A stretch of DNA of 64,000 nt from Roseimaritima multifibrata (lineage in GTDB: Bacteria > Planctomycetota > Planctomycetia > Pirellulales > Pirellulaceae), in contig NZ_CP036262.1 of NCBI RefSeq assembly GCF_007741495.1, positions 1,178,001-1,242,000 on the forward strand. The letters run 5' to 3'. Below, one piece after another: positions 37,603-54,930 of the stretch. The position numbers and the translations under genes were made by a program. The notes beneath the pieces are model-generated. The model was not told the origin of the DNA and made no database searches. It was given only the letters and a program-made list of their open reading frames with translations. Position 1 is the first letter of the stretch; the number at the start of each line of letters is the position of its first letter.

Positions 37603-37675
37603 TTCACTTGTCACCGGTTACGACGTTCTGTGTTCGCTCTCTTACAGTTTCTTTCTTTCAGCTTAGTACCTTGCG

Positions 37676-38965: not shown

Positions 38966-41900
38966 TGCGATTGGAACGTTTAGACCTATTGGCCTTTGGT
39001 GGGTTTACCGATCGCAGTTTGGATCTGTCCGCTGGCCCTCATCGTTTGCATTTGATCTTTGGACCCAATGAATCGGGGAAGTCCACAACGCTCCGTGCGA
39101 TCACGGGGCTGTTGTATGGGATCGAATCGCGAACTCAAGATAACTTTCTGCATAGCAATGCGAAAATTCGCGTTGGCGGTCACATTGTCGACGATCAAAA
39201 TGGATCGCTGGAATTCGTCCGTAGGAAAGGGAATCGCAATACGCTTCTCAATCCGGATGGAAGTGCTCAAGACGAAGCCAATCTGGCTCGTTTTTTGACC
39301 GCGATCGATAAAGAAATCTTCGAGCGGCAATTTGGCTTGAATCATCCGCGATTGAATGAAGGGGGCCAATCGATCAGCCAAGGGGAAGGCGACCTGGGCG
39401 AAATCTTGTTCGCTGCTGGAGCGGGTTTGGGACAGCTGACAAATATTCAGCAGATCCTGAAGAAAAAGCAGAGCGACTTGTTTCTCCGCTCGGGCGCAAA
39501 TCCTGCGATCAATAAAAATCTTGAACGTCTGAAACAGGCCAGACGGGAAATGAAAGAGGCGCTGCTGAAACCGGCGGACTACGTTCAGCGGGTTCAGGCG
39601 TACGAACAACTGGCTGCCGAAACCAAGGAATTGCGCGAACAAGTTCAGAAACGCAAAACAAGGTTGGATCGCGACCGTCGCCGTTTAGAAGCTTTGCCAC
39701 TTGTTGCCCGCCGCGCCATCCTTTGTGAAGAACTGAAGGGGTGTGAAGGCATCCCGATCCTCTCCAAAGATTTTGCGGAGCGGCATCGTGCTGCGGACCG
39801 CAAACGGATGCTCGTTGAAGAACAACGGCAGCGGATCGAGAATGGCTTGAAGGATCTGCAAACCGAGTGGGACGCGATCTCCTCGGATGAAAATGCGCTC
39901 CGCCATGGGCAGCAGATCACGTCTTTGTACGAGCGATTGGAGTCTTGGAAAAAGACCTTGCGGAAATTGCCGGACATTGGTGCTGAAATCGATTCTCTGC
40001 AGCGGCAGATTGCGAACGATCTAAAGCGGATCAATCATGACGCCGCGACGGTCGATATGGAATCGCTTGAAATTCCAGTTGCTCGGCGGGAAGCGATCCA
40101 GAACCTTTTCAATCAGTACGGCGGATTGAACGAGAAGGTAAGTTCCGCGGAACGGACATTAAAAGAACTGCAACAGCAGGCCGAAGAGGCCGAGCGGAGT
40201 GAACGGGGCAGCGCCCCGCCGACCGACCCGCAGGCTTTGGCGGTTGTTCTGGAACAAATTGGACAACCACAGCTCCTTCTCGATCAACTGCGAACGGCCG
40301 AAAAGAATTGCAACAAGCGATTGCAACGCGCGGAAAGCGAATTGCAGAAGCTGGATGGATTTCAAGGGACTTTGACCGAAGTCTTTGAACTGCGAATCCC
40401 GTCCGCTGCGAAAATTGCTGAAGAGACCAAGCTGCTTGAAAAGCTTGCTAAAAACTTGCAGCATTCGATCGATCAAATCCACGCCGGTGAAGAAAAACTG
40501 ACCGAGATCACCGACAAACTGGCCGCCGCCCGTGGCAAGCAGTCGCTCCCTAGCGAAGCCGATTTGGCCAAGTTGCGTCAGGTTCGCGATGATCAGTTGC
40601 AGGGGCTTGGACTGAAGCAGGACGGCTCGGGTGGAGAGTGGGCGATTCTTGGGAAAGCGATCGCAGACGCCGATGCCTGTGTCGATATCTTGCGCAGTGA
40701 AGTCCAACGCGTCGAACGCAGGGCGCAATTGGAGCACGAGCAAGGTGTGCTGCAAACGCAATTGGAAAACTTGGCAGAAGCTAGGCAGGAAGCCGATGCT
40801 GCGTACAACGAGGCTTGGCGGCAATGGTTGGACCTTTGGCAACAGCATGGGATCCGTGCGGATCAGCCCGCGGTTATGAAAGATTGGGTAGCCGCCTTTG
40901 ATCGTTTGCAGCAGATGCACGGCGAGCTTGATGACGCTCAGCTGGCCGTTCGCGAAGCGAAACAGTCGGTCGCTCTGGCCGTCAATCGATTGCAAACAGC
41001 GTTGCGGTTTGCAGAAGTCCCAGCCGGTTCCGGACTGCCAGAGGGAACACATACAGAACAAGATCTAGCGCCGTCCGAAGATGATCGCCCCTTGTTGGAC
41101 GTGCTTGAATCGCCGCATGAAGAATGGCTGGGTGATGGCGAAGAACCGGTTCATCAATCCAGCTCTCCCGAACCGCCGCTGGAACATCCGCAAGATCTGA
41201 TCTGGCTGTACACGACCGCGAAGCATCAGCTGGAGCAGCAGCGTGCCCGGTTCTCTGATTTTCAGCAACAGGCACAAGCACGGCAATTATTGAAAAGCCA
41301 ATTGCCTCGTGCGGAACGTCATTTGGAAGAGTGCAATGCGGAAATGCAAATTTGGCGAACGCACTGGAAAGAGGCCACCAGTTACCTCAATCAGTCGGCT
41401 GATCTGCACCCCGATAGTATTAATCGGATCATCCACGATATCGATGCAGTCCTTCGGCTAAATGAAGATCGTGCTCGTTTAGAACAGCAGCGAGACAGCA
41501 TTCAGCGGGAATCGGATCTGTTTGTCAATGAAGTCCAAGACCTTTTGGATCTGATGGAATTGCCTGCGGACGAAGATCCCGCGAAGTCCGTTCTGCAGTT
41601 GTGGCAGGAATTAAATGCCCAGCAAACGAACCACCAGCAACGTGCTTCATTGCGGAAACAATTGGAGCAATCGGAGCAACAAAAATCGCAGATGCAGGTC
41701 GACTGGGAATCGGCAGAGACCGAATTGAAGATTTTGATCAAAGAGGCTGGCTGTGAGCGAGCTGATGACTTGAGTGCCGTCGAGCAACAGGCCCTGAAAC
41801 GGGATCAGTTGGTGTTGGAACGGACCAGCCTTGATTCGCATCTACAAACATTGGCGGGGTCGGGAGACTTGGCAGCGTTTGTTGAAATGGTGGAAACGAC

Positions 41901-42573
41901 GGACGCCAGCGAGCTGCAAGATCAGGTAACCAGCGAACAGGCCGAGTTGGCTGAGATCGATGAACGATTGACCGAGCAGTTGCAAAGGCTAGGTCAGCGT
42001 CGCAGCGGCGTCGAAGCGATGGACGGTCGAGGTGCCGCGGCGCAGGCCCAGCAGGAGCTTCAAGATAGTTTGGCGAAGATTCGACGGGACGCAATGGATT
42101 ACGCAACGCTTCGCGTCGCGGACATCGCGCTGCAACAGGCGATCGAACGCTATCGAGAAACGAATCAGGGGCCTGTTTTAGCGCGCGCGGAAAGTTTGTT
42201 CGCTCGTCTGACGCTTAATGACTACAGCGGATTGCGAGCCGATTTTGACGAACGCGGCCGGCCGGTGCTGGTAGGGCTGCGAGGTTCGGATATGGTCCCC
42301 GTGACTGCGATGAGCGACGGGACGGCCGATGCGCTTTATCTGTCGCTTCGCTTGGCGAGCCTTGAATCGCACTTAAAACGTCGCGGACCATTTCCATTGG
42401 TCTTGGATGATATTCTGATTCAGTTTGACGATGGACGTTCGGCAGCCGCTTTAAAGATTTTGGCAGAGCTAAGTCAGCAGACGCAGGTGTTGTTTTTCAC
42501 GCATCACCAGCATCTGTTAGATCTAGCGAAGGAGACTTTGCAGTCAAACGAATACCATTCGCATGCGTTGTAA
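38965..42573 (+). CDS. SbcC/YhaN-like coiled-coil ATPase
   Basis: 1202 aa from the ATG at 38965 (AAGAGGA upstream; the frame is open to 38905 inside the previous gene, but MRLERLDLLAFGGFTDRSLD is the family's start). The Walker A, GPNESGKST, is near residue 33. Long Glu/Gln/Leu-rich coiled coils fill about 190-1050. The second ATPase half carries the signature-like AMSDGTADALYLSLRLA (near 1112) and Walker B PLVLDDILIQFDD (near 1146), followed by a His switch region HHQHLL. It should form an SbcCD/Mre11-Rad50-like complex with the upstream phosphoesterase. Confidence 0.9.
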   Translation: MRLERLDLLAFGGFTDRSLDLSAGPHRLHLIFGPNESGKSTTLRAITGLLYGIESRTQDNFLHSNAKIRVGGHIVDDQNGSLEFVRRKGNRNTLLNPDGSAQDEANLARFLTAIDKEIFERQFGLNHPRLNEGGQSISQGEGDLGEILFAAGAGLGQLTNIQQILKKKQSDLFLRSGANPAINKNLERLKQARREMKEALLKPADYVQRVQAYEQLAAETKELREQVQKRKTRLDRDRRRLEALPLVARRAILCEELKGCEGIPILSKDFAERHRAADRKRMLVEEQRQRIENGLKDLQTEWDAISSDENALRHGQQITSLYERLESWKKTLRKLPDIGAEIDSLQRQIANDLKRINHDAATVDMESLEIPVARREAIQNLFNQYGGLNEKVSSAERTLKELQQQAEEAERSERGSAPPTDPQALAVVLEQIGQPQLLLDQLRTAEKNCNKRLQRAESELQKLDGFQGTLTEVFELRIPSAAKIAEETKLLEKLAKNLQHSIDQIHAGEEKLTEITDKLAAARGKQSLPSEADLAKLRQVRDDQLQGLGLKQDGSGGEWAILGKAIADADACVDILRSEVQRVERRAQLEHEQGVLQTQLENLAEARQEADAAYNEAWRQWLDLWQQHGIRADQPAVMKDWVAAFDRLQQMHGELDDAQLAVREAKQSVALAVNRLQTALRFAEVPAGSGLPEGTHTEQDLAPSEDDRPLLDVLESPHEEWLGDGEEPVHQSSSPEPPLEHPQDLIWLYTTAKHQLEQQRARFSDFQQQAQARQLLKSQLPRAERHLEECNAEMQIWRTHWKEATSYLNQSADLHPDSINRIIHDIDAVLRLNEDRARLEQQRDSIQRESDLFVNEVQDLLDLMELPADEDPAKSVLQLWQELNAQQTNHQQRASLRKQLEQSEQQKSQMQVDWESAETELKILIKEAGCERADDLSAVEQQALKRDQLVLERTSLDSHLQTLAGSGDLAAFVEMVETTDASELQDQVTSEQAELAEIDERLTEQLQRLGQRRSGVEAMDGRGAAAQAQQELQDSLAKIRRDAMDYATLRVADIALQQAIERYRETNQGPVLARAESLFARLTLNDYSGLRADFDERGRPVLVGLRGSDMVPVTAMSDGTADALYLSLRLASLESHLKRRGPFPLVLDDILIQFDDGRSAAALKILAELSQQTQVLFFTHHQHLLDLAKETLQSNEYHSHAL

Positions 42574-43139
42574 CTGCAAGCGAGTCGTTTGATTGGCCGT
42601 GCCAGCGTCCCCCTGCCTTCTCCCCGCGGTACCACCCCTCATCGATCGCAATCGATGAGGTGCGTGCTGCCACGTCCACGCACTATCACCCACGTCCGCT
42701 ATCGCCTGAGCGGAGGCTTGGCGTCCGACCAAGTTGTCGTCATTGAGCATTTTTTTGGGGGGGGCAGCAATCGCCGTTTTTTGTGTGAGCGGTACAGTAA
42801 GTCCTATTTAAATGCGAGTCATCGATGTAACTGTCGATTCGCCAATTACCAGGGGACTTAAAGATCTGTGCACGAGCGATTGGCGTCGTCGAACCCAAAT
42901 TTTCGATGCAAAGCGGTGTGCGATAAAAAAGGGATGTTACTTGCAAGGCAAAAGACGCAGAGGTTGCTGAATGCATTTGCTGATTCATCTCCGAGGCGAT
43001 TTAATCGCTAGCCATCGCAATTAGAAGCTTGCTCCAGTCCGATTTAGCAGTGAGAATAGAGGCATGGTGGTGGAGTGAAGTGGTGAGAATAAGTCTCCCA
43101 CCGCCAAAAATCGTCACCGCATACAGATTTGTTCACACC
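42574..43139. other. Left boundary of the accessory island
   Basis: This 566-bp stretch has no gene I can support. It contains the hairpin at 42637-42660, a G-run near 42760, and inverted GGTGGTGGAG/CTCCCACCGCC segments around 43064-43105. The next recognisable structure is the first attC-like site at 43140. Confidence 0.5.
42637..42660. terminator. 10-bp perfect hairpin after the SbcC-like gene
   Basis: Arms CCTCATCGAT and ATCGATGAGG enclose a CGCA loop 64 bp after the operon's last stop. There is no T-run, so it may terminate with help or stabilise the 3' end. Confidence 0.5.
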
Positions 43140-43212
43140 GCCGAACCACCAAGAATCCTCCCCAAAACCATTTATTCCTACCCGGTACGTCCGGTAAGGA
43201 TGAGTGTTATCC
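43140..43212 (+). repeat. attC-like site 1 (partly degraded)
   Basis: Left core GCCGAAC (43140-43146), right core GTTATCC (43206-43212). The arms pair only partly. GTTATCC is itself enclosed by GATGAGT/ACTCATC. The next ORF starts 23 bases after it. Confidence 0.5.
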
Positions 43213-43234
43213 GACTCATCTGAATGGCAGCCAA

Positions 43235-43777
43235 ATGAATAGACATCGTTACCTAGCAAGAACGCTCCTTATTGCAGTCGCTGTTATTGTTGCATATTTC
43301 CCGCTTGCGAAACTGTATCACCTGTGGTTTACGAGCGAGTACTCCTCGTACTACGTGACATCATTATTAGCGTCGGAGATTCACAACGGTGATTCAGTTG
43401 ATGAAGTTGCGACGCACTTTGCATCTCAGCGATTTTTGACCGCTTCGGAAATAGATGTCATGAAGGATATCCCAGATACATTTGGAGGAACCGAGCGTCC
43501 GATGGAAGATGGCGACACATACTATTGCTTCTCAACTTACAGTGGCGAGAGCATCTTTGCGCAATTCCGAGATGGTCGCCTTGTTGGGCTTCCAAACGAG
43601 TGCTACGAAGACTTGCCCCTGCTTGCAGAAATCAATGGATTTTCGCTGCCAAACCCAATTTTCCGGTTCGGGTTTTGGCCACTTTACCTTATTGGCATTA
43701 TTTGCATTTGGCTGTTCCTTGTGTCGCGTTGCTGGATTCGCCGACCAGGCAGCAGCGGCCAATCGCTCGCGGTATAG
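43235..43777 (+). CDS. Cassette ORF: two-helix membrane protein of unknown function
   Basis: 180 aa, not recognised. A basic start (MNRHRYLART) leads into a hydrophobic helix at about residues 9-30, then a soluble part of about 110 residues containing GDTYYCFSTYSGES and FRDGRLVG, and a second helix near 150-168 followed by an Arg-rich end. The ATG is 23 bases after attC-like site 1 and the stop is 6 bases before site 2, the normal layout of a gene cassette. Confidence 0.65.
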   Translation: MNRHRYLARTLLIAVAVIVAYFPLAKLYHLWFTSEYSSYYVTSLLASEIHNGDSVDEVATHFASQRFLTASEIDVMKDIPDTFGGTERPMEDGDTYYCFSTYSGESIFAQFRDGRLVGLPNECYEDLPLLAEINGFSLPNPIFRFGFWPLYLIGIICIWLFLVSRCWIRRPGSSGQSLAV

Positions 43778-43783
43778 TTACGC

Positions 43784-43875
43784 GGATAACCATGGCATTC
43801 ACACGGAGCGGGGCTTGCGGCCGTTTTGAAATAGAAGACTTTACTCTCCCCGCCCGGTGATGCCTGGCGTTACCC
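43784..43875 (+). repeat. attC-like site 2
   Basis: Left core GGATAAC (43784-43790), right core GTTACCC (43869-43875), 92 bp. Inner arms pair through GGCATTCAC against GTGATGCC with one extra T unpaired, then CGGAGCGGGG against CCCCGCCCGG. This is the best-preserved stem in the array. Confidence 0.75.
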
Positions 43876-43884
43876 GACTGAATC

Positions 43885-44358
43885 ATGAACGATGACCTGT
43901 CGCCACGCGAGAAGAAGTGGTCTGACCTTTATCTCCGCTCCGAAAAGCTGCACCGCGCGAAGCAACTCGGCATGGAATACCCACGCGTACAAGGGCATCA
44001 CCAAATCGAACAACATGCTGTAAACGTCCTGTTCATCTGCTCAAAGAACCGCTGGCGCAGCCCAACCGCAGAGAAGATGTACACTGACCACGACCTGATT
44101 CGGGTTCGCTCGGCTGGCACCAGCCGGTCCGCAAATCGCGTTGTGCGGTCCGGAGACCTCAAATGGGCGGACGTTGTGATCGCCATGGAACCGAAGCATG
44201 TTTCACGTCTGCGAGCCGACTTCCCTGGCGAGACGCGATACTTGGACATCCACTGCGCTGACATCCCAGACGACTACCGGTTCATGGACCCGGAGCTACA
44301 GAGCCTCATCGCTGATGCGGTCGCCCGTATTCTCCCGGACCACGCAAGCAACGGATAA
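43885..44358 (+). CDS. Cassette ORF: low-molecular-weight protein tyrosine phosphatase family
   Basis: 157 aa. After an N-terminal extension of about 45 residues comes VNVLFICSKNRWRSPTAEKM, whose C-x5-R-S loop (CSKNRWRS) is the catalytic P-loop of LMW-PTPs. SAGTSRSANRVVRSGDLKWADVVIAMEPKH and IPDDYRFMDPEL match the short bacterial subfamily, with the general-acid Asp likely in IPDDY. The start lies 9 bases after attC-like site 2, and the TAA stop is part of the left core of site 3. Substrate unknown; the only cassette product with a clear enzyme family. Confidence 0.88.
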   Translation: MNDDLSPREKKWSDLYLRSEKLHRAKQLGMEYPRVQGHHQIEQHAVNVLFICSKNRWRSPTAEKMYTDHDLIRVRSAGTSRSANRVVRSGDLKWADVVIAMEPKHVSRLRADFPGETRYLDIHCADIPDDYRFMDPELQSLIADAVARILPDHASNG

Positions 44359-44443
44359 CCATCGCATTCATACGGAGCCGGGCTTAGGCGATTTCACGAA
44401 TGGACACTCAACTTTCCCGGCCCGGTGATACGGGTCGTTATCC
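44353..44443 (+). repeat. attC-like site 3
   Basis: Left core GGATAAC (44353-44359), right core GTTATCC (44437-44443), 91 bp; the outer 8 bp are perfectly complementary. The stop codon of the phosphatase (44356-44358) lies inside the left core, a hallmark of integron cassettes. Confidence 0.78.
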
Positions 44444-44456
44444 GACTCGGATTCTC

Positions 44457-44879
44457 ATGAGTGACACAGTCGAACCCGAGGTGCACTTAGAAGCCAGTCG
44501 CTGGCGTTTCTTTATCACGACGGCCTGGTCGAGTTTGTCTATTGGGATTCTGGTCTATCTGCTTACGATGTGGTTAAACGTTCCGTATGGATGGGCTGTT
44601 TTTCTCGTTGTGTTGCGTGCATTTCTCTGGGCTGCAACCATCGACATTCGCAACCTGGACGTGCGGGTTGATGCAAACAGTTTGACGGGGCCAGGTATGC
44701 TCTTTTCCTCGAGTTCCAGCACGTTGTTGTTGCCGAATATTGACGGCGATAACGTGTTTGAATTGCTCGGCGTTTTCTCCGTGGAGGATTCGGATGGGAA
44801 TGAGATAATGGGACACTACAGCTACTATTCTCGTGCGGATCGCGAATTCCTTCGTGAATTTATTCAGCGTCTTCGCTAA
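44457..44879 (+). CDS. Cassette ORF: two-helix membrane protein
   Basis: 140 aa from the ATG at 44457, 13 bases after attC-like site 3; the frame extends to 44400 but that part lies within the site. Two adjacent hydrophobic helices span about residues 17-60 (TTAWSSLSIGILVYLLTMWL and AVFLVVLRAFLWAA), followed by a soluble beta-rich tail of about 75 residues. The layout resembles small PH-domain-like membrane proteins, but I do not recognise the family. Confidence 0.6.
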   Translation: MSDTVEPEVHLEASRWRFFITTAWSSLSIGILVYLLTMWLNVPYGWAVFLVVLRAFLWAATIDIRNLDVRVDANSLTGPGMLFSSSSSTLLLPNIDGDNVFELLGVFSVEDSDGNEIMGHYSYYSRADREFLREFIQRLR

Positions 44880-44906
44880 ACTTTACAACTCTTGCAGGGA
44901 ATCTGC

Positions 44907-44996
44907 GGATAACCATCGAATCCACCGAAGTCGGGATTGCGAGGTTTTCCAAATGAACAATCAACTTTCCCGACTCGGTGATGCGGGTCGTTCTTG
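44907..44996 (+). repeat. attC-like site 4 (right end diverged)
   Basis: Left core GGATAAC (44907-44913); the right end reads GTTCTTG (44990-44996), a diverged core. The inner arms pair well: ATCCACCGAAGTCG against CGACTCGGTGAT with unpaired bases. The middle section (TTCC-AATGAACAATCAACTTTCCC) resembles the middle of site 3. Confidence 0.65.
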
Positions 44997-45024
44997 CCGG
45001 CTGGCGCGCCTTCAAGCTGGCAAT

Positions 45025-45310
45025 CAATGCTCCCGGTGATCGATCGGTTCTTTCGGCTCAGCGTCCCTTGCAGCTTTCGTGGTAGCCTAAGGCTGTAGGC
45101 AGCCATTGTTCGCATCTGGCTAAAGCAACCTGGCGCATCCATTCGCGAAATTAGCGTTATTAGCGGGCAATGTTGCGCGCATGTTTTTGCCCGCGAATGA
45201 CGCTAATCTACGCGAATGATGGGGCTCGTGATGCGCGGTCGACCTTGATGCGTGTTGTCGCTGCTTCGCGACTCGATGTCGATTTTTGTTGCTCGGCTCC
45301 GGTTCGGCCA
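45025..45310 (+). repeat. Dispersed hairpin repeat, copy 1
   Basis: A roughly 285-bp element shared with 47213-47499 and 49958-50248 in the same orientation. Its centre (45140-45218) is a long near-perfect hairpin: CATTCGCG...ATTAGCG...GCGGGCAA pairs with TTGCCCGC...CGCTAAT...CGCGAATG. The 3' part (CGCGGTCGACCTTGATGCG to CGGTTCGGCCA) is almost identical between copies 1 and 2. Confidence 0.85.
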
Positions 45311-45321
45311 GTAATGGGGAT

Positions 45322-45758
45322 TTGATTACCGATCCAATCTTCGACCACGATCGGCGCGATGTATATCGTCTCTCGATCGAATACTTTGCCGAGGCATTGG
45401 CGTTTGTAAATCACCCAGCGGATTGTATTGTCACGCCAGCGACCAGTGGCTGCGTGCAGCTCAATCGATCCCGCTCAACTTCGCCGAAGGCAACGGAAAA
45501 TCCCGGCGCACGGATCGTGCGTGATTCCTCGACATTGCATGTGGTTCGGCGTTGGAATATGCGGCAATTCAGGAGATGCTACTGACGACGAAAGGGCTCA
45601 AGGTTCAGGACGATGCCGCGGTGAAGGCATTGCTGCACCGGATTGTCTCGATGCTGACTTGAATGGCGATGAAATTTGGCGGTGTCGCCGAAGAGGTCGC
45701 GGAGTATGATGCTGCGGTCGATTACGATTGCGATTGGGGAGACCCGCCGGAACCATGT
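45322..45758 (+). pseudogene. Degraded four-helix-bundle protein gene (S23/IVP family)
   Basis: Two frames together give a four-helix-bundle protein. DPIFDHDRRDVYRLSIEYFAEALAFV is in the first. After a frameshift near 45410-45424 come DQWLRAAQSIPLNFAEGNGKSRRTDRA, FLDIACGSALEYAAIQEMLL and LLHRIVSMLT in the second. In-frame TGA codons at 45522-45524 and 45660-45662 break it further. The downstream MAMKFGGVAEEVAEYDAAVDYD looks like the family's acidic tail. Relatives occur in 23S rRNA intervening sequences and as Avd accessory proteins of diversity-generating retroelements. It begins 12 bases after hairpin repeat copy 1. Confidence 0.8.
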
Positions 45759-45841
45759 GGTGTTCGTGCGGCGGCAACGGTTTCTCGTGAACGCAACGTC
45801 CTGAATCGCCGCCGTGTGACCACTTACGTTCCGTCACTTCC

Positions 45842-46300
45842 ATGCAACTATCTGAAAACGCTTCAATGGCCAATCTGCCCAAACAGCGCATTCTAGATTC
45901 ACGGCTGACACAAATTAGTCATTCGCATCCAACCAAACCTGAGTTTGTACTTAAAGGAATTGGCCCCGCCGAATTCCGATCTCACTACCTCCGACTTGAA
46001 TCTGGTGTGGTCCTTGATCTTTTCACTGCCGAACTAACTGTCGCAACCAGCGATGAAATGGTCTGCGCTGGAGAAACGGATGGCATCCCGGTGGACGCCC
46101 TAATTGGTAGAACCGTAACCGGCGTTTGGAATGACGACACCGGTTCCTGTATCGTGGTCCTGGACCATGAGATTTATCTGAAGGATTCGAACGACGGTGC
46201 GTACGGTAACCCGCTGCGTGCCGGCTTGATCGTCAATGACTATACTGAAGACCAGCGGTTAGAGTTCACTGACTATTGGACCGAAGAGCCGTTGGAATAG
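45842..46300 (+). CDS. Cassette ORF: soluble protein of unknown function
   Basis: 152 aa, not recognised; an internal ATG eight codons on (MANLPKQRI) could be the true start. It has no signal or membrane segment. It is acidic, with alternating beta-type segments (FVLKGIGPAEFRSHYLRLES, GVWNDDTGSCIVVLDHEIYL) and an acidic end (TDYWTEEPLE). The stop directly abuts attC-like site 5. No clear site precedes it; the dead four-helix gene lies upstream instead. Confidence 0.6.
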   Translation: MQLSENASMANLPKQRILDSRLTQISHSHPTKPEFVLKGIGPAEFRSHYLRLESGVVLDLFTAELTVATSDEMVCAGETDGIPVDALIGRTVTGVWNDDTGSCIVVLDHEIYLKDSNDGAYGNPLRAGLIVNDYTEDQRLEFTDYWTEEPLE

Positions 46301-46301
46301 G

Positions 46302-46391
46302 ACGCAACCATCGATTGCAACGAAGGCCGCGCGTCAGCCGATTTAAATTGGTCAATCCATTACACGGCCTCCCTGAACCGAACCGTTATCC
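46302..46391 (+). repeat. attC-like site 5
   Basis: Left core ACGCAAC (46302-46308), right core GTTATCC (46385-46391), 90 bp. Inner pairing is GAAGGCCG against CGGCCTCC with flanking partial matches. It begins 2 bases after the stop of the preceding ORF. Confidence 0.6.
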
Positions 46392-46424
46392 GCCTGAACC
46401 CATCATACGTGCCCAGCATCCTGA

Positions 46425-46838
46425 ATGTCCCAAGCGATGTCTGACAACGAACATTGCGCCATAACCGTTTTTCACGTCGACCCGTTCACTGGGATTTTGC
46501 TTGAGCCCACGCCTCCCTTCGAACGCTACAACACTGTTCCGAATCGAAACTGTGTCAATTTCGATACCGCATCCGACGCTATCAAGTATTGCCGGGAAAC
46601 AGTCGCTTCCCATCCACATGTCCAGTGTGTCGTTAACGGACTTCCGGTTGGCACACCATGCGAGTTTGGAGACCCCGCGTGGGTCGAGGGTGAGTCGAAG
46701 CGTCGGATGGAACAAAACAGACTGATTGCCGACGACTTGGAACGCCGCCATCGCCGGGATCGCTTGTGGCTTACGGGATTCATCATCGCTGTTCTAATTG
46801 GTGTGGTACTGTTCGTGCTAACCCGATCGGGAGGGTGA
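46425..46838 (+). CDS. Cassette ORF: tail-anchored membrane protein
   Basis: 137 aa, family not recognised. An N-terminal soluble domain of about 105 residues (AITVFHVDPFTGILLEPTPP, then FDTASDAIKYCRETVASHPHVQCVV) is followed by a charged linker (RRHRRDR) and a single C-terminal hydrophobic helix (LWLTGFIIAVLIGVVLFVLT). The start is 33 bases after attC-like site 5. The sequence after the stop contains only a badly degraded candidate site near 46850-46900. Confidence 0.62.
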   Translation: MSQAMSDNEHCAITVFHVDPFTGILLEPTPPFERYNTVPNRNCVNFDTASDAIKYCRETVASHPHVQCVVNGLPVGTPCEFGDPAWVEGESKRRMEQNRLIADDLERRHRRDRLWLTGFIIAVLIGVVLFVLTRSGG

Positions 46839-47212
46839 CTAGTAAGTTGCACTGGAGCGGAAGGTCAGTTGCCGCCGCGGAGTGAGTTTTAACGTTTTGC
46901 TGTCCGTGTTTGCTCTGGTCGATTGCAGGCTTGTTGGGCGTTCTTCGCTCTTGCTTAGGCTGTTCCCGAGACTCATCGGCTTCTGATCTTCCTGCCCCCA
47001 TTTTCCTGCCCATTTGCTCGGCAGGAGTTGGCAAGAAGATGGGGGCAATAAAATTCTAATAATGGTCGAATTGTTGCTCGATCTCTCTTTGGCCAGGGTG
47101 CTAAGGGCTCTGGATCCAGGCCGCTTGACCAGTCGTCCGCCACGCATGTTCAGTGCAATGCCCATGTGACGACCAACGTTCTTGCAGGCTAACGTACCGT
47201 CCACGCTGGTAC
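46839..47212. other. Non-coding stretch with a long hairpin
   Basis: No supportable gene in this 374-bp gap. It holds the hairpin 46993-47047. A minus-strand open frame from 47261 to 46839 exists, but it has no domain and runs into hairpin repeat copy 2, so I leave it uncalled. Confidence 0.5.
46993..47047. repeat. 18-bp imperfect inverted repeat
   Basis: TGCCCCCATTTTCCTGCC (46993-47010) pairs with GGCAAGAAGATGGGGGCA (47030-47047) with a few non-Watson-Crick positions; the loop is 19 bases. An A/T-rich stretch follows on the plus strand. Confidence 0.65.
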
Positions 47213-47499
47213 TCCATGCTCTTGGTGGTCGATCGGTTCTTTTGATCCGGCGTTTGCGCATCGGTTGTGGTAGGCGAAGGCTACGTGGCAGTCATTGTTC
47301 GTTTCTGGCTAGGGTAACCTGGCGCATCCATTCGCGAAATTAGCGTTATTAGCGGGCAATGTTGCTCACATGTTTTTGCCCGCGAATGACGCTAATCTGC
47401 GCGAATGATATTGCTTGTGATGCGCGGTCGACCTTGATGCGTGTTGTCGCTGCTTCGCGACTCGATGTCGATTTTCGTTGCTCGGCTCCGGTTCGGCCA
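47213..47499 (+). repeat. Dispersed hairpin repeat, copy 2
   Basis: The same element as at 45025-45310. The hairpin lies at 47329-47407 with both arms complete, differing from copy 1 at only a few positions. The 5' 100 bp are more diverged than the 3' part. Confidence 0.85.
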
Positions 47500-47863
47500 A
47501 TCGGTTGCGATCTACATGTCGATGTTCCTGTTTGCGGTTTGTATCGATCTCTGCTTGCGACCGTTCGTCAGGTTCCTTAAGCGTATCTGTCGATGCTCTC
47601 GCGTATCACGGTCTGCGGATCAGGTCGACGGTTCCGCGACTTCCGGTAACGATCTCGCAACAACGCAGCTTAAGGTCGCGCTCGATGCGATGCGAGAAGG
47701 TGAGGAGGTTCTGTCTAAATCCTATGCGGCACGACGCTGCTCATTGGATGATTTCGTCCGTGCGAAATCACTTCGAATCCAGACCGAAATCGCGCTGTTT
47801 CGACATGAGGCAATGCCAAGGCCTTGGGAAGAAGTTTGTGGAAAATCTCTGTCATCAACATGA
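47465..47863 (+). CDS. Small ORF starting inside hairpin repeat copy 2
   Basis: 132 aa from the ATG at 47465. The first ten residues are translated from the repeat; then come a hydrophobic helix (SVAIYMSMFLFAVCIDLCL) and a helical, charged remainder. In copy 1 the same start meets a stop after 12 codons. An overlapping frame of similar length exists, so coding status is uncertain. Confidence 0.35.
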   Translation: MSIFVARLRFGQSVAIYMSMFLFAVCIDLCLRPFVRFLKRICRCSRVSRSADQVDGSATSGNDLATTQLKVALDAMREGEEVLSKSYAARRCSLDDFVRAKSLRIQTEIALFRHEAMPRPWEEVCGKSLSST

Positions 47864-48005
47864 TTGTGAGGGGATGCACCGATCCGCAGTTGAACCGGCG
47901 AACCACGAACTCCATAGAAAATCGCCATGACGTGCTGGACACTGGATCCTCGTTAGGGCGAACCCCGTCAATTTGAACCTTCGACTGAATCTTCGGATCG
48001 AACGC

Positions 48006-48458
48006 ATGATTGGGAATCACTCTGAAGGCGTTATCGTGACCGCAGTTTATCGTCATTGCGGTATTGTGGGGCTTCGTTGGTTTGGTCGGGTTTACTTCCC
48101 GCTTTTACTCGGTTGCCTAGTCACGCTTGGTATCGCCGTCGTGTGGGCAACACCTTTTCTCCCATCGCCACAACGAGTCGTGACACAAGTTGCGTCGGGT
48201 GCACTATTGCTTGTGGGCGTATTTCTCGTCTGCCGTATGTGGGCCGCATTTCAGCGTGAATTGTCTAACCTGGACGGATTGCTGCATCATTCCATTGACG
48301 ATATTGCTGGCGAGGACGGATCTATTTGTTTCCTTGGCTTCAAGGTGATACCATGCACTCAGGGCCTCGCGTTCTCACGATCTGCCTTGGTACGCACAGC
48401 GGTGAACAGCCTGCGTATGCATCGGAGACCGCGAATTTTGTTACTTGGTCGTAGGTAA
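48006..48458 (+). CDS. Cassette-type ORF: two-helix membrane protein
   Basis: 150 aa from the ATG at 48006; a TTG at 47973 is less likely. Two hydrophobic helices (VYFPLLLGCLVTLGIAVVWA and SGALLLVGVFLVCRMWAAF) are followed by a soluble part that ends in a basic tail. Not recognised. A weak attC-like remnant (GGCGAAC near 47894, GTTAGGG near 47954) precedes it. Confidence 0.5.
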   Translation: MIGNHSEGVIVTAVYRHCGIVGLRWFGRVYFPLLLGCLVTLGIAVVWATPFLPSPQRVVTQVASGALLLVGVFLVCRMWAAFQRELSNLDGLLHHSIDDIAGEDGSICFLGFKVIPCTQGLAFSRSALVRTAVNSLRMHRRPRILLLGRR

Positions 48459-48518
48459 CATTGCCACCGTTTCCGCTGATGCGAACCGTTCTGTCATTAC
48501 TCTTTTTGAGGAAGCGAC

Positions 48519-49034
48519 ATGCGCCTGCTCTCATTACTTATCGTTGTTTTGGTGCTGACTCCTGTGTTTGGGCAGGATGAGGAAGTGCGTTCTGTCGTAG
48601 AGTCTACGCCGCAAAAAACGGACTCGCCGCAGGTCGCTCCAATCGCTCTTTGGAACGTTGCACCACTTTCGGCGTCCGAAAATCAGCTGGTTGGCGAGTG
48701 GAAACAAACGATCTTACCTACGAACGAAGAGGGCCCAACGTGCACATTCTCGTCAGACCGCGCATTCCGTTCTGACTCAGGGATTGCGGGGCGATGGCAT
48801 GTCCGTGACGAACTGCTACACATTCAATACTGGACAGACAAGCAGTCTCTTTTGCCGTATGCCGACCTTTTACGACGCTGGCACGCTCCCGCGGATACCT
48901 GGAAAATTACGTTTAGCGATGAAGGCAACCGGGTTGAACTGGCTCCACCAAACAAAGCGATTGAGGCTGTATTCACGCGTTTAAAGGATAAGAGCAAACG
49001 CAGTGTCGCTGACCAGTCGCAAGCTCCACGCTGA
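48519..49034 (+). CDS. Cassette-type ORF: exported protein of unknown function
   Basis: 171 aa. A clear signal peptide (MRLLSLLIVVLVLTPVFG, then Q) precedes a domain with NQLVGEWKQT, TCTFSSDRAFRSDSG and AGRWHVRDELLHIQYW. This pattern is seen in lipocalin-like proteins that start with a GEW-type strand; I cannot assign a family with confidence. GAGGAAG lies 6 bases before the ATG, one of the few good ribosome-binding sites in the island. Confidence 0.65.
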   Translation: MRLLSLLIVVLVLTPVFGQDEEVRSVVESTPQKTDSPQVAPIALWNVAPLSASENQLVGEWKQTILPTNEEGPTCTFSSDRAFRSDSGIAGRWHVRDELLHIQYWTDKQSLLPYADLLRRWHAPADTWKITFSDEGNRVELAPPNKAIEAVFTRLKDKSKRSVADQSQAPR

Positions 49035-49061
49035 GTGCGACGAAGACAGAAAGCCAGGGGC

Positions 49062-49143
49062 TGGCAATGCATTGACGTATGGCTTGGGTGGTTTTGTGAA
49101 TGGAAGATTAATTGTCCGTCCTCGGTGACGGGAGATGTTCGCC
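49062..49143 (+). repeat. attC-like site 6 (diverged)
   Basis: The right core is GTTCGCC (49137-49143) in the context CGGTGACGGGAGATGTTCGCCGACT, parallel to sites 2-4. The left end near 49062 (GGCAATG) is degenerate. The middle (TTGTGAATGGAAGATTAATTG) resembles the middle of site 3. Confidence 0.5.
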
Positions 49144-49167
49144 GACTGGAATCGACTTGCTATACAG

Positions 49168-49740
49168 ATGATGGACACTAAAACCGTAAATCCATACGAT
49201 CCTACATCGCTTCCGGACGATGTATTGACTTCTGGATTGACTCGCTTGCAAACCTCTCTCGTTACAATTCTTGCGATAGTGTTGCTTTTGCGAGGCGGTT
49301 TCATGCTCTTCTCGTGGGTGATGCAACTGTCTTCCGGCTTCACCATTGATTCTCATTTCTACGCGGCGACCTTTGCCAAAGATCAGATTTACGGGCTTTC
49401 CGCGTTCATTGGCGGGTTGATGCTATTGCCCCGGCACAAGTCCGGTTGGTGGTTCGCGTTGATTCATTGGTGCTGGTACGTCGCTTACGAAATCTGTGTT
49501 GTCTCCGCTGCTGCGGCACTCGGTTGGCGCATTCCCCTGCATGCCTACCCTCCAACGCTATACCGCGTCATGGGGTTCACCGCGTTTCTTGCGATTTGCG
49601 GGCTTTCTATTCTGCTTTGGCGACCCGTTGCCACTGCCTGCCATGCGCCAGTATCCAAGCGGTACTTGGCGGTAACGGCGGTAATGATCTCTTCCGTGGC
49701 GCTGGCGTTCGCCGTAAACTGGTGGATGTCACAACGCTGA
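49168..49740 (+). CDS. Cassette ORF: multi-spanning membrane protein
   Basis: 190 aa from the ATG at 49168; the frame is open further up but inside the attC-like site. Four to five hydrophobic helices: LVTILAIVLLLRGGFMLFSW, YGLSAFIGGLMLL, FALIHWCWYVAYEICVVSAA, VMGFTAFLAICGLSILLW and VMISSVALAFAVNWW. Family not recognised. The ATG lies 25 bases after site 6, in cassette position. Confidence 0.65.
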   Translation: MMDTKTVNPYDPTSLPDDVLTSGLTRLQTSLVTILAIVLLLRGGFMLFSWVMQLSSGFTIDSHFYAATFAKDQIYGLSAFIGGLMLLPRHKSGWWFALIHWCWYVAYEICVVSAAAALGWRIPLHAYPPTLYRVMGFTAFLAICGLSILLWRPVATACHAPVSKRYLAVTAVMISSVALAFAVNWWMSQR

Positions 49741-49861
49741 TTTGCGAATGTGGCGAAAGCGACGCGGCAACGGGTACTGTTAAGATCAATCGCAAGCTAA
49801 ATCAACCTTCTGTCTCGCTGAATAAGCGGTGGCGATTCCGTCCCGCTTCGTGGTCAATGAC

Positions 49862-49947
49862 GGGTAACCCTGCGATGGTAAGAGCGGCGCCGAAACGCGA
49901 TTGCACATGGTCGACCAACCGCGGCGGGCCGGTGATCGCGGTTGTTC
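49862..49947 (+). repeat. attC-like site 7 (diverged)
   Basis: GGTAAC on the left (49863-49868) and GTTGTTC on the right (49941-49947). Some pairing remains (AACC and GCGAT on the left against ATCGC and GGTT on the right), with GGCCGGTGATCGCGG in the expected position. It lies 121 bases after the preceding stop, further than in other cassettes. Confidence 0.4.
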
Positions 49948-49957
49948 TAGCAGGCTG

Positions 49958-50248
49958 ATGCTCCGACCATGTTGGCAAACACTACTCGCGGAAGGCGATC
50001 GGCTCCTGCGTTCCCTTTTACTTTGGGTGACAGCCTAAGCCTGCAGGGCAGGTGTCGTTTGTTTGGGGATAGACAGGTTGATGCATCTGTTCGCGTTATT
50101 AGCGCGCAAGGTTGCTCGGATGTTTTGCCCGCTAATAACGCTAATCTACGCGAATGATACTGCTTGTGATGCGGCGTCGACGTTGATGCGTGTTGTCGCT
50201 GCTCCGCGACGTGGTGTCGTTGTTTGTTGCTTGGTCCCGATTCGTGCG
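49958..50248 (+). repeat. Dispersed hairpin repeat, copy 3 (diverged)
   Basis: Same order of elements as copies 1 and 2 but more substitutions. The left hairpin arm (from 50084) has lost the first ATTAGCG block, while the right arm (to 50156) is complete, so the stem is shortened. The 3' part (GTCGACGTTGATGCGTGTTGTCGCTGC) is recognisable. Confidence 0.75.
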
Positions 50249-50413
50249 ATATGTTAAAAGAATGCTATATCGATGCGGATGGCGAATCGTTCGTTGTGCC
50301 GTAAACCTGTCGCAGGAACGATTTCCCCGCGGGTGGGCGCAAGGCGACCGGCAAATTCGTTGTGTTTTCAATGCGATTGGCGGACGGTTCGCATCGTTCC
50401 GCTAAGAACGTAG

Positions 50414-50689
50414 ATGGCATTGGGCTCTTCCCCTCACGTATGGACCAACATGCTCCGTTCCACTCGTGTCTACTCACTTGGTATCTGCACTGGCGTTGGG
50501 ATTACCTTAACGATTCTCGCAGTCACGGCGCGGCTCGGGATTCTTGCATCCGATGCGTTGCTTGATATCGGTTGCCTTGTCTCTGGCGTTCTCCTTTTGC
50601 TTTTCAGTAGCGCGATGTGGTTGCGCCGCAAGCCAATCGTCAATAAACATCTTCCACCTCATCGATCATCTTCCACGCTTCGGAACTAG
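50414..50689 (+). CDS. Cassette-type ORF: small two-helix membrane protein
   Basis: 91 aa from the ATG at 50414; an internal ATG at 50450 is also possible. Two hydrophobic helices (YSLGICTGVGITLTILAV and IGCLVSGVLLLLFSSAMWL) with a short basic tail. Not recognised. It lies 165 bases after hairpin repeat copy 3 and is followed by attC-like site 8. Confidence 0.5.
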   Translation: MALGSSPHVWTNMLRSTRVYSLGICTGVGITLTILAVTARLGILASDALLDIGCLVSGVLLLLFSSAMWLRRKPIVNKHLPPHRSSSTLRN

Positions 50690-50757
50690 TTCGAATCCAT
50701 GGGGTGGCGTCCTGGCGTTGTTTTTCACTGTCGTGCTCCAATGCTCGCTATAATCGC

Positions 50758-50851
50758 CGATAACACATGGTGTGTTACGTGGCCGGGTTTGCGAACGTTT
50801 CTTTCAGCTTGCAAGTTAAGTCTCCCGGTTCCCAGAACCCTACTGTTCGTC
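50758..50851 (+). repeat. attC-like site 8
   Basis: Left core CGATAAC (50758-50764), right core GTTCGTC (50845-50851), 94 bp. Pairing extends well inward: GCCGATAACA against TGTTCGTCGGC, and GGCCGGG against CCCGGTT. This is the last site before the tandem repeat block. Confidence 0.7.
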
Positions 50852-50899
50852 GGCCAAACGGACGTCTTAAAGGAACGCTGTGAACGTCATTCATCGACT

Positions 50900-51810
50900 G
50901 ACGGCTTGCGAGCGTTTGGCGTTAAATGAATCGTATTCGTACTCAGAGCGCAGCCCGGTACTCGTACTTGTACTCGAATCTGGGCACCGTTGATCGATCC
51001 TCGCTTCGAGCACGCTCAAATCGGTCTTTGTCGTCTCTCGTCAGTCGCAGAATGGGATGGGGGCGTCGAGTACGAGTACCGCGATGCTGAGTACAAGTAC
51101 GAAAAAGGCAGGACCTCAGAACCAGGCTGTGCATCTGCGGACGGCTTGCGAGCGTTTGGCGTTGAATGAATCGTACTCGTACTCAGGGCGCAGCCCGGTA
51201 CTCGTACTCCTACTCGAATTCGGGCACCGTTGATCGGTCCTCGCTTCGAGCACGCTCAAATCGGTCTTTGTCGTCTCTCGTCAGTCGCGGAGTGCAATGA
51301 GGGCGTCGAGTACGAGTACCGCAGTGCTGAGTACAAGTACGAAAAAGGCAGGGCCTCAGAACCAGGCCGTGCATTTGCGGACGGCTTGCGAGCGTTTGGC
51401 GTTGAATGAATCGTACTCGTACTCAGGGCGCAGCCCGGTGCTCGTACTCCTACTCGAAATGGGGCACCGTTGGTCGATCCTCGCTTCGAGCACGCTCAAA
51501 TCGGTCTTTGTCGTCTCTCGTCAGTCGCGGAGTGCAGTCGGGGCGTCGAGTACGAGTACCGCGATGCTGAGTACGAGTACCGCGATGCTGAGTACGAGTA
51601 CCGCGGTGCTGAGTACGAGTACCGCGGTGCTGAGTACGAGTACCGCGGTGCTGAGTACGAGTACGAGTACAAGTACAAATACGAAAAAGGCAGGGCCTCA
51701 GAACCAGGCTTTGAATTTACTGACGGCTTGCGAGCGTTTGGCGCTGAAGGAATCGTACTCAGGGCGCAGCCCGGTACTCGTGCTCGTACTCGAATTGGAG
51801 CACCGTTGCC
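50900..51810 (+). repeat. Nested tandem repeat: 240-bp units
   Basis: Units start with GACGGCTTGCGAGCGTTTGG at 50900, 51140, 51380 and 51722: two units of 240 bp, one of 342 bp and a partial one. Each contains GGTACTCGTACTC and, about 110 bases on, GAGTACGAGTACC, a 13-bp inverted repeat in the best copies. The unit spacing is exact and the copies are nearly identical, indicating recent amplification. Open frames across the block translate the repeat only; I do not call a gene. Confidence 0.92.
51548..51652 (+). repeat. 21-bp minisatellite inside the third 240-bp unit
   Basis: Five copies of GAGTACGAGTACCGCGATGCT (third to fifth copies with GCGGTGCT), followed by shorter GAGTAC repeats. One frame reads EYEYRDA repeatedly. 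The other long units carry a single copy, so the expansion accounts for most of the extra 102 bp. Confidence 0.95.
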
Positions 51811-51867
51811 TGTGCGTCGACCGACTGGTTTCGATTTCCGAGTGGGGGTGCAATTCAGGGCAGCTTG

Positions 51868-52626
51868 CTAGCTTCTTAGATTCCAGTCTTGCATCTCTTC
51901 GAGCAATTCTCTGCGGGTGAGGTCAAACTTTAGCGGGGATACGGTGACGTGTCCGTCGCTTAGTTCGGTGACATCGGTGTCGGCTGCCGGAGGTTTTTCC
52001 GGTGCGTGCCATACGGCCCAGTAGTAGTCTCGACCGCCTGGATCTTGCCTCTTTTCGTATCGGTCGCCGTACTGGGCCAACCCCATCGGGACGACTTTGA
52101 CCTCGGCCGCATGATTGGTCGCTTCGGTCGGAATGTTGATGTTGAACAGTCCGCCCTCTGACGACGGTTTCGAGGCGATTCCTCCAATGACGTTTCTGGC
52201 AATCACCGCGGCGGCCTGGAAATCGGCATCGGGAGCGTATTCCAGCGAGACGGCACAGCTGGTGATCCCGAAAAAGGCTCCTTCGATCGCTGCGGCGACG
52301 GTCCCGCTGTAGAGGACGTTGATCCCTGCGTTCAGCCCGCTATTGATCCCGCTGACAACGATGTCGGGACGCCACGGGCAAAGCTCGGCAATCGCCAATT
52401 TGACGCAGTCGGCGGGGGAACCTTCGACCGCCCAGACCGTGCGACGATCGGGGAGAATGATCTTTTTGCAAACCAAGGGGGTGAGGAACGTAATCGAATG
52501 CCCTACTCCGCTCTGCTCGGTTGCGGGGGCTGCCACAAAGACCTCCCCTAGGTGCCGCAATTGACTTTCCAACGCTGCCAGTCCTGGAGCGTAAACGCCA
52601 TCATCGTTGGTCAATAAAATTTTCAT
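51868..52626 (-). CDS. surE: 5'/3'-nucleotidase SurE
   Basis: 252 aa. SurE is a metal-dependent nucleoside monophosphatase linked to stress survival. The N-terminal metal site LLTNDDGVYAPG (two adjacent Asp) and VSGINSGLNAGINVLYSGTVAAAIEGA are diagnostic, together with SVEGSP-type EGSPADCVKLA and YWAVWHAPE. Its start overlaps the stop of the upstream glycosyltransferase by 4 bp. It is the last gene of the lnt-hpt-GT-GT-surE run and borders the tandem repeat block. Confidence 0.95.
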   Translation of the reverse strand: MKILLTNDDGVYAPGLAALESQLRHLGEVFVAAPATEQSGVGHSITFLTPLVCKKIILPDRRTVWAVEGSPADCVKLAIAELCPWRPDIVVSGINSGLNAGINVLYSGTVAAAIEGAFFGITSCAVSLEYAPDADFQAAAVIARNVIGGIASKPSSEGGLFNINIPTEATNHAAEVKVVPMGLAQYGDRYEKRQDPGGRDYYWAVWHAPEKPPAADTDVTELSDGHVTVSPLKFDLTRRELLEEMQDWNLRS

Positions 52627-53720
52627 GAAAACTCGTTATATAGTTCAATGTGTTTACGGATCATTTGTGAGACCGAGAAATGTTCGGCGATTCGCTGTTG
52701 TCCGGCAGCCCCCATCGCTTTGGCCCGATCCGGGTCTTCAATGATCATGTTGGTCACCTGGGCAAAACCTGCCGGGTCACCCAGGGGACGCAAATAGCCG
52801 GTCTGTTGGTCAATCACGAGGTCTCGATTTCCGGGAATATCGGACGCGACGACTGGGACTCCCATCTGCATCGCTTCCATCACCGCGTTGCTTTGCCCTT
52901 CGTATTCGCTTCCGATCCAAAAGGCTTTACTGTGGGGGAGCAATTGTTGGATGTCACTTCGAGAGCCCGCGAATTGAACCCTTTTCGGGAGCGTTGCCGC
53001 GTCGCGGTATCGCAGCAGTTCCGCTCGCTGAGGCCCATCGCCGATGATGACAAGCGTGGTGTCTCGGCGCAATTCGCCCAGCATCTGGCCTCCCCAGACA
53101 AGGTCCCTGTATCGCTTCTGGGCCCAGAGTCGACCGACCGCAAGAATGAGGTGCCGTTCGGGGTCGACATTCAACCGGCGGTAGGCTTCGGTTCGATCGA
53201 TCGGTTCCACTTGAGCCGGCTGGATTCCGTTGGGGATGATGCGAAAGCGTTCGGCTGGGATTCCGTGTGCGGCGTAAAAGTCGCTCACTCCGGAACTGTT
53301 GGTTGTGATCGCAGCACTTTTTTTGGCGAGGTAGCGATCGATAAAAAAGTGGCGACTTGTTTTCCATGGATCGACGCAGCGTTCGGATCCGATCACCACA
53401 GGAACGTTGATCGCCGCAGCCGCAGCACGGCCGTAGCTGTTGGCGGCAAAGATCCACGTATGAACGATATCGGGGTTCAGTTCGCGGAGGATTCGTTTTA
53501 GTCGCCAGTATGCCGAGGGGTCGGCTTTGAATCGTTTGCCAACCAAGGTGACGGGGATCCCCGCCGCATCGAGGGCTTCTCTGCGGGGGCCATCGCGGGT
53601 GAGCAGAACAACGTGCGGATCGAATTGGTCCCGTGGTAACCCTGCGGCCAGAAGCGTCAACTGTTTTTCGGCGCCACCTCGATCCAAGGTCGGGATGATC
53701 AGGCATAGTCGTCGCGTCAC
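52623..53720 (-). CDS. GT4-family glycosyltransferase
   Basis: 365 aa from a GTG at 53720. The GT-B fold is indicated by CLIIPTLDRGGAEKQLTLLA at the N-terminus, LILAVGRLWAQKRYRDLV near residue 195 and the E-x7-E type region GSEYEGQSNAVMEAMQMGVPVVASD near 270-295. GTGA and ATGA overlaps couple it to both neighbours. It probably acts with the adjacent glycosyltransferase on a surface polysaccharide or glycolipid. Confidence 0.9.
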   Translation of the reverse strand: MTRRLCLIIPTLDRGGAEKQLTLLAAGLPRDQFDPHVVLLTRDGPRREALDAAGIPVTLVGKRFKADPSAYWRLKRILRELNPDIVHTWIFAANSYGRAAAAAINVPVVIGSERCVDPWKTSRHFFIDRYLAKKSAAITTNSSGVSDFYAAHGIPAERFRIIPNGIQPAQVEPIDRTEAYRRLNVDPERHLILAVGRLWAQKRYRDLVWGGQMLGELRRDTTLVIIGDGPQRAELLRYRDAATLPKRVQFAGSRSDIQQLLPHSKAFWIGSEYEGQSNAVMEAMQMGVPVVASDIPGNRDLVIDQQTGYLRPLGDPAGFAQVTNMIIEDPDRAKAMGAAGQQRIAEHFSVSQMIRKHIELYNEFS

Positions 53721-54928: not shown

Positions 54929-54930
54929 CT

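Follow-up and report, generated by a model that had tools for sequence, protein, structure and literature searches.

An attI-headed cassette array without an adjacent integrase gene in Roseimaritima multifibrata, a probable satellite integron platform

The planctomycete Roseimaritima multifibrata carries, at positions 43140-50851 of a 64 kb window of its single-contig genome (1,178,001-1,242,000 of 7,216,590 bases; "the window" refers throughout to this whole stretch), an island in which small plus-strand open reading frames (ORFs) are interleaved with imperfect palindromes. The island is probably a planctomycete-type array of integron cassettes that possesses its own attI site and a likely promoter and lacks an integrase gene (intI), in other words a satellite integron platform. 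We regard the presence of a genuine array of attC sites in the window as close to certain, and its being headed by an attI as very likely. The initial annotation had described the alternation of palindromes with same-strand ORFs, which is present, and the lack of an integrase in the array, which is borne out by a profile search of the window's genome interval that gave no Phage_integrase or IntI match.

attC sites, attI and candidate promoter

The attC sites were recognized with a covariance model built from 16 sites that adjoin the two intI genes of the genome and were picked by eye; no window site was used in training. In the training alignment, 14 of the 18 base pairs have at least one sequence in which both sides have changed and the pair is kept, and the consensus stem is interrupted by single unpaired columns (for example, columns 21 and 29). 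The ten attC matches that the model found in the island are on the plus strand; four are strong (54.9-68.6 bits) and six weaker. At E ≤ 10 there are 11 matches in the 64 kb, ten of them in the island on the plus strand and the other at 1615 on the minus strand with 10.2 bits; the weakest three island sites (49858, 47893 and 46829; E 0.14-0.53) are individually not significant. Eight palindromes had initially been read as attC sites. The three for which extra unpaired bases had been noted (43784, 44353 and 44907) are indeed strong attC matches, with 68.6, 56.5 and 56.5 bits and with unpaired consensus columns, whereas the first palindrome is part of the attI and the one near 50755-50853 has no match to the model even at E ≤ 10. 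The canonical attC core is RYYYAAC at R'' and GTTRRRY at R'. The window core ends retain AAC and GTT and read GGATAAC and GTTATCC, with related forms at the intI-adjacent sites, and the relaxed core is a trait of this attC type. Plain folding of AAC/GTT pairs in the window was rejected as a means of finding sites: R'' and R' often mismatch within an array, so that many of the structures obtained were due to chance and just one of the four strong sites (44357-44439) was among them. The four strong sites lie within 2.6 kb; the threshold for a CALIN (cluster of attC sites lacking integron-integrases) is two attC sites (PMC9024848).

Across the genome the model gave at least 98 matches at E ≤ 1 and at least 83 at E ≤ 0.001, counts that are lower bounds with 150 of 2,297 candidates scored and with rough E-values. 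Grouped by a 10-kb gap, the matches at E ≤ 0.001 fall into eight clusters of 3, 4, 3, 3, 14, 14, 23 and 19 without a singleton, and the first lone match, at 181,326, has an E-value of 0.124. Recurrence of the palindromes outside such arrays, which the initial annotation had raised as an objection to its own proposal, was not seen at E ≤ 0.001.

The ends of a cassette are expected to be complementary when the cassette is closed as a circle; by this logic the R'' of an attC should pair with the start of its own cassette and not with the start of the next. Of 100 sites taken from the genome, AAC and GTT were clear in 76; the 67 of these with a site ahead of them were scored, and the filters (at least 30 bits for the site and less than 1,500 in length) left 53, a count that excludes cassettes directly following an attI. 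All five flanking bases are complementary to the cassette's own start in 30 of the 53 cases and to that of the in-array neighbor in two. Pairs with the own start number 205, whereas 10,000 shuffles averaged 106 and never exceeded 137.

The array begins with a sequence homologous to an attI. Positions 43083-43198 align over 117 bp to the leader upstream of intI-1, one of the two integrase genes, at 73.5% identity (E 1.5e-11), so the initial statement that no attI is visible does not hold. The attI of the IntI-1 type is placed at 43083..43206 on the plus strand by homology, with the crossover, positioned by eye, between G 43206 and the following TT. On this homology the first element of the island (approximately 43140-43212) is part of the attI and not an attC. 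An exact 18-base core, CCCGGTACGTCCGGTAAG, occurs twice in the genome, in the window attI and beside intI-1. When up to three mismatches were allowed, seven sites were found compared with ten for the reversed control, and therefore only exact or near-exact matches are meaningful; most weak G000 matches to the window attI were set aside as chance. A hairpin common to the attI copies is not claimed, because a double change was seen in just one of 14 pairs.

Immediately upstream, 43029..43057 on the plus strand is likely to be a cassette promoter (Pc), as predicted from its consensus match (TTGCTC, a 17-base gap and GAGAAT). The pattern TTGCNN-17-GA(T/G)AAT occurs in seven of nine attI-1-type leaders, the window included; this regular expression has no match in the IntI-1 leader, where TTGCTA-17-CATAAT can be picked out by eye, nor in the leader at locus L052.

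Two alternatives can be weighed here. It is extremely improbable that the island is not an integron, and that its palindromes are repetitive extragenic palindrome (REP)-like or terminator structures between small genes. Such a reading could draw on the inner ~120 bp of a 321-bp repeat of the island, which is also present elsewhere in the genome outside arrays (40 of 46 candidates scored), but the window has no Rfam match at gathering scores, model matches at E ≤ 0.001 are not scattered, and the match to a model trained beside IntI, the covariation, the closure signature, the attI and the clustering all argue for attC sites. Scarcely more probable is that a distant IntI inserted cassettes into a secondary site where there had never been an integron. 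Off-target insertion is among the three proposed origins of CALINs (PMC8618304), and the genome does encode two IntI proteins; however, the array begins at the 117-bp, 73.5% identical attI homologue and not at a random site.

Integrases and attI-headed arrays of the chromosome

The search for an intI that the initial annotation had recommended, with the TIGR02249 profile, yielded two genes above the cut-off of 265 bits. IntI-1, at 2,983,514 (422 bits), is encoded 1.76 Mb from the array and is the nearest; IntI-2, at 5,041,985 (401 bits), lies 3.8 Mb away, or 3.4 Mb the other way if the chromosome is circular. Both genes are full length, in keeping with the earlier suggestion of a recombinase elsewhere in the genome, and their action on the array would be in trans. 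A tblastn search of the window with IntI-1 gave no convincing remnant (best E 0.015, at 9.8 kb). Among the matches listed, the closest named relatives of IntI-1 are from Rhodopirellula solitaria (68%) and Rubripirellula obstinata (72%; best segment in each case). IntI-1 (L014, 9470-10816) has 119 residues ahead of its SAM-like domain, and IntI-2 (L015, 9270-10442) has 74, counted from a chosen start; alignments extend ahead of IntI-1 residue 60 in four among the 80 relatives kept (R. solitaria, Rubripirellula obstinata, a Luteimonas and a Granulosicoccaceae metagenome-assembled genome). The tyrosine recombinase encoded in the 5.72-5.74 Mb array was rejected as a third IntI: it scores below the TIGR02249 cut-off, skips model positions 178-214, is 24% identical to IntI-1, and is directly followed by an ORF that resembles an IS91-type transposase by eye. 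The two (L047, 15537-17594) run opposite to the cassettes. Among 20 genomes, this one included, an IntI above the cut-off is encoded in four and attC sites at E ≤ 0.001 are present in at least 13 (150 candidates scored in each).

The window array is not alone. An attI module of one or other of the two integrase types heads five of the six intI-less arrays of the chromosome. The array at 1.566 Mb has an attI-1-type leader at its head that is 79% identical to the window over 70 bp (E 5.5e-10), and a solo attI-1-like leader at 6.079 Mb (L052, 7199-7288; 75% over 92 bp) has no attC match at E ≤ 0.1 within 12 kb. The attI-2 type is found at E ≤ 0.001 in four places, each an array head. Identity to the IntI-2 leader is 98% at 2.572 Mb, 92% at 1.402 Mb and 96-97% at 5.743 Mb, where the site is in two pieces with a 21-bp duplication between them. 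Aligned to the IntI-2 leader, these three copies share a left edge to within 3 bp; in two pairwise comparisons between copies, the alignment extends 15-29 bp further at lower identity. In the congener G002, an attI-2 beside an interrupted intI is 75% identical, and the 92-98% of the satellite copies therefore indicates that the attI-2 satellite modules are young.

Similar arrays exist in two congeners. Two arrays of G002, at 3.376 and 5.909 Mb, are headed by attI-1 modules and have no IntI-1-like sequence in the surrounding stretches covered; a further such module, at 2.684 Mb, adjoins an interrupted intI. In G001, an attI-1 heads an array on contig 119, with two further attI-1 matches on contigs 163 and 103. 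A tree of nine attI-1 leaders separates the four copies of R. multifibrata (support 98/99) from four of G002 and one of G001, as if the copies arose or were homogenized within lineages; 17-21 of 500 label shuffles cluster equally, and the 6.079 Mb copy forms a long branch. Shortened or interrupted intI copies of the congeners (L058, 4092-5298; L055, 5823-6763; L157, 3196-4077), two of which keep an attI module, are possible stages of intI loss. G009, a single-contig genome from another genus of the family (L149-L152), has at least 40 attC matches at E ≤ 0.001, no IntI above the cut-off and no match to either attI type; compared with one another at E ≤ 1e-8, its arrays share only short, attC-sized matches, and no common leader was found.

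Cassettes are common to integrase-bearing and integrase-less arrays. A 1,555-bp cassette is present as a tandem pair at the attI of IntI-1 and as a single copy at the attI-2 of the intI-less 5.743 Mb array, with 99.3-99.9% identity over its full length. A 615-bp cassette occurs in three arrays, that of IntI-1 and the two intI-less ones at 2.56 and 1.40 Mb, with 87-97% identity between arrays; its ends are exact for the IntI-1/2.56 Mb pairs and for one pair with 1.40 Mb, and the other alignments run from the cassette start and stop short of the cassette end. Identity to the copies in R. solitaria and G001 is lower, at 75-83%. The 1,555-bp cassette (L014, 11187-14304; L048, 3487-1928) encodes an IS91-type transposase with Y2_Tnp and Zn_Tnp_IS91 domains and has an attC-like end of 31.5-34.1 bits. 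That these IS91-like ORFs are an insertion sequence sitting in the IntI-1 attI is disfavored by the three copies with identical G|TT ends and the attC-like end.

The window array can be compared with the attI-headed array L160 of G001, in which an unmatched cassette and the 615-bp cassette are followed by a homologue of window cassette 5 (protein 80% identical over 144 residues). The window order is cassettes 1-3, a fusion resembling the 615-bp cassette, and cassette 5. A collinear tail and a different head are what insertion at attI predicts; the flanking chromosome, however, is not the same for the two arrays, and one congener alone shows the pattern. The blocks that flank the island, 34879-42573 on the left and 51868-55521 on the right, are conserved in order in G001 and G002 but lie ~45 and 122 kb apart there, with no attC match at E ≤ 0.1 in the stretches covered (L059-L062), which places the island at a rearrangement junction. 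A chromosomal rearrangement, instead of a deletion, could consequently have parted the array from its intI. We consider this unlikely, given that no intI remnant was found in the window and that repeated attI modules elsewhere need a copying process and not a single break.

Operation of the satellite platform would be as follows. Cassettes would be circles closed at G|TT, and an IntI would join the folded attC to attI; new cassettes would enter at attI beside the promoter, and older distal cassettes would decay. The type of the window attI makes IntI-1, encoded 1.76 Mb away, the most likely matching integrase. From these sequence comparisons we are cautiously inclined to the view that IntI-1 serves the window array in trans, now or recently, and we infer that the predicted promoter is functional and the array still active. 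More tentatively, the chromosome may hold a distributed integron, in which two integrases serve attI-plus-promoter platforms scattered around the chromosome and draw on one shared cassette pool, the attI module spreading as a separate ~117-bp unit whose left edge is fixed; this joint proposal is plausible without being our favored one. The platforms counted are the two integrons with intI, the heads of five intI-less arrays and the solo attI.

A number of observations weigh against a satellite platform supplied in trans. The distal attC sites of the window have decayed, which would fit an array that is dying. None of the window cassettes has a counterpart (at least 70% of both) in another array of the genome, and trans activity at the window thus rests on how its head and tail compare with those of one congener's array, and on the other arrays. 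The 1,555-bp cassette may have been moved by its own transposase, and the ancestor of the window and G001 arrays may have had its own intI. The intI-less array at 0.49 Mb has no recognizable attI. In the closure analysis, pairs with the neighbor are slightly raised (124 compared with 108, p 0.028). Within the window closure is perfect only for cassette 1, by eye, and cassette 3, whose R'' makes five of five pairs with its own start and one of five with the neighbor; cassette 5 makes four and zero, cassette 2 pairs at four of five bases with its own start and at all five with the neighbor, and cassette 4 pairs at three of five with its own start.

The island could also be a dead relic, an ordinary integron from which intI was deleted and in which attI and cassettes persist without recombining. 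The fall of the distal attC sites from 54.9 to below 20 bits and the absence of any intI found in the window are what such a relic would present. In contrast, the three attC sites closest to attI have good scores, the head of the array differs from that of the collinear G001 array, several arrays have cassettes in common, and the attI-2 satellites, at 92-98% identity to the IntI-2 attI compared with 75% for G002, are young. We consider a dead relic possible but doubtful.

Cassettes and repeats of the island

All features of the island are on the plus strand. Cassette 1 (43207..43869) contains an ORF of 180 residues (43235-43777) with no Pfam match, and its attC is at 43780..43880 (68.6 bits, E 4.9e-15); its R'', GCGGATAAC, is complementary by eye to its own start, GTTATCCG, and it stands outside the 53-cassette count. 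Cassette 2 (43870..44437) encodes a low-molecular-weight phosphotyrosine phosphatase-like protein of 157 residues (43885-44358) with a short match to PF01451 over 35 residues (E 7.1e-7, 30 bits, cut-off 23.2), and is followed by an attC at 44349..44448 (56.5 bits, E 5.3e-12). The remaining eight window ORFs tested have no Pfam match above cut-off. Cassette 3 (44438..44990; ORF 44457-44879, 140 residues) ends in an attC at 44903..45003 (56.5 bits, E 5.3e-12); its protein reaches 20.4 bits against Phage_holin_3_3, under the cut-off of 28.4. Cassette 4 (44991..45828) is without a convincing ORF and consists of a 321-bp repeated head fused to part of the 615-bp cassette family (45313-45574, ~80% identity), with a weak attC at 45743..45839 (27.8 bits, E 8.8e-5). 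Cassette 5 (45829..46385) has an ORF of 152 residues at 45842-46300 and an attC at 46298..46396 (54.9 bits, E 1.4e-11).

Distal to these lie decayed cassettes. The first, 46386..47178, has an ORF at 46425-46838 and an attC-like site at 46829 (12.7 bits, E 0.53); its GTT boundary is at 47178, and a second 321-bp copy begins at 47181. One or more decayed cassettes occupy 47179..48488, with an ORF at 48009-48458 and attC-like sites at 48400-48499 (22.0 bits, E 0.0024) and 47893-47987 (12.7 bits, E 0.52). At 48489..49137 an ORF of 171 residues (48519-49034) is followed by an attC-like site at 49055-49148 (19.4 bits, E 0.011), and 49081-49152 is 76% identical to an attC region of the IntI-1 locus (L014, 18876-18947). 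The last decayed cassette, 49138..49953, has an ORF of 190 residues (49168-49740) and an attC-like site at 49858-49953 (15.0 bits, E 0.14), and a distal remnant, 49954..50890, contains a partial third repeat copy (50090-50244) and an ORF (50414-50689).

The 321-bp ORF-less unit starts at cassette boundaries, with copies at 44991-45313 and 47179-47499 and the partial one at 50090-50244; all seven of its near-full-length copies in the genome lie within arrays (40 of 46 candidates scored). At its right end (50892-51920) the island has 240-bp tandem repeats, three copies from 50892, and short GTACGAGTACCGC-type repeats; similar units are present in other arrays of the genome and in the G001 array L160. 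Group II introns that are 95-98% identical between loci lie against the cassette direction in L014 (16248-18342, with a reverse transcriptase), L043, L045 and L046, and a shorter type lies in the cassette direction in L015, L047, L050 and L051. Searches of plasmids with the array and with surE gave no match.

Relation to known integrons

For the origin of CALINs, and for whether they are alive, this genome offers a testable case, since the matched attI types indicate which integrase should serve which array. The young attI-2 copies, at 92-98% identity, further raise the question of how an attI module moves. CALINs are said to outnumber integrons with intI (PMC9668308), and attI, poorly described beyond class 1, is left out of the default search of the standard tool (PMC9024848), so that attI-headed arrays would be classed as plain CALINs. 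Group IIC-attC introns are found in CALINs, and a genome with a CALIN and no intI is known (PMC7923331); a Treponema remnant without intI has been termed static (PMC3607928).

Much of the background is already in print: CALINs, planctomycete integrons, mobilization in trans and one phage CALIN headed by an attI. The window array resembles a CALIN in having at least two attC sites and no intI nearby, and CALINs are stated to be mobilizable in trans (PMC12444791, PMC9668308). It differs in having its own attI and a likely promoter, and in being one of five such arrays beside two integrons with intI. In Xanthomonas, CALINs occur at seven chromosomal loci, with no attI mentioned in the available part of that paper (PMC12444791). 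Planctomycete intI and attC are known (PMC2426708, PMC8352920, PMC8618304; R. baltica is named in PMC3108266), and the window array shares with a planctomycete sedentary chromosomal integron the attC type, the attI, the cassette architecture, and ORF-less and duplicated cassettes; unlike that integron, it has no adjacent intI, and there are several attI platforms per genome. In mobile integrons, truncated attI sites that function in recombination are found in cassettes (PMC12901181), where an attI takes the place of the attC at the cassette end, whereas here the attI module is the array head. In the literature available, mostly non-subscription, we found no account of several attI-headed satellites on one chromosome. 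The closest precedent is Shewanella prophage M16-3, where a CALIN is headed by an attI identical to that of the complete integron in the same phage genome (PMC9892861). That is a single prophage case; the bacterial chromosome described here has five, which fall into two attI types, and two congeners have similar arrays. What is new is the pattern, in which five of six intI-less arrays are headed by an attI and cassettes are common to integrase-bearing and integrase-less arrays.

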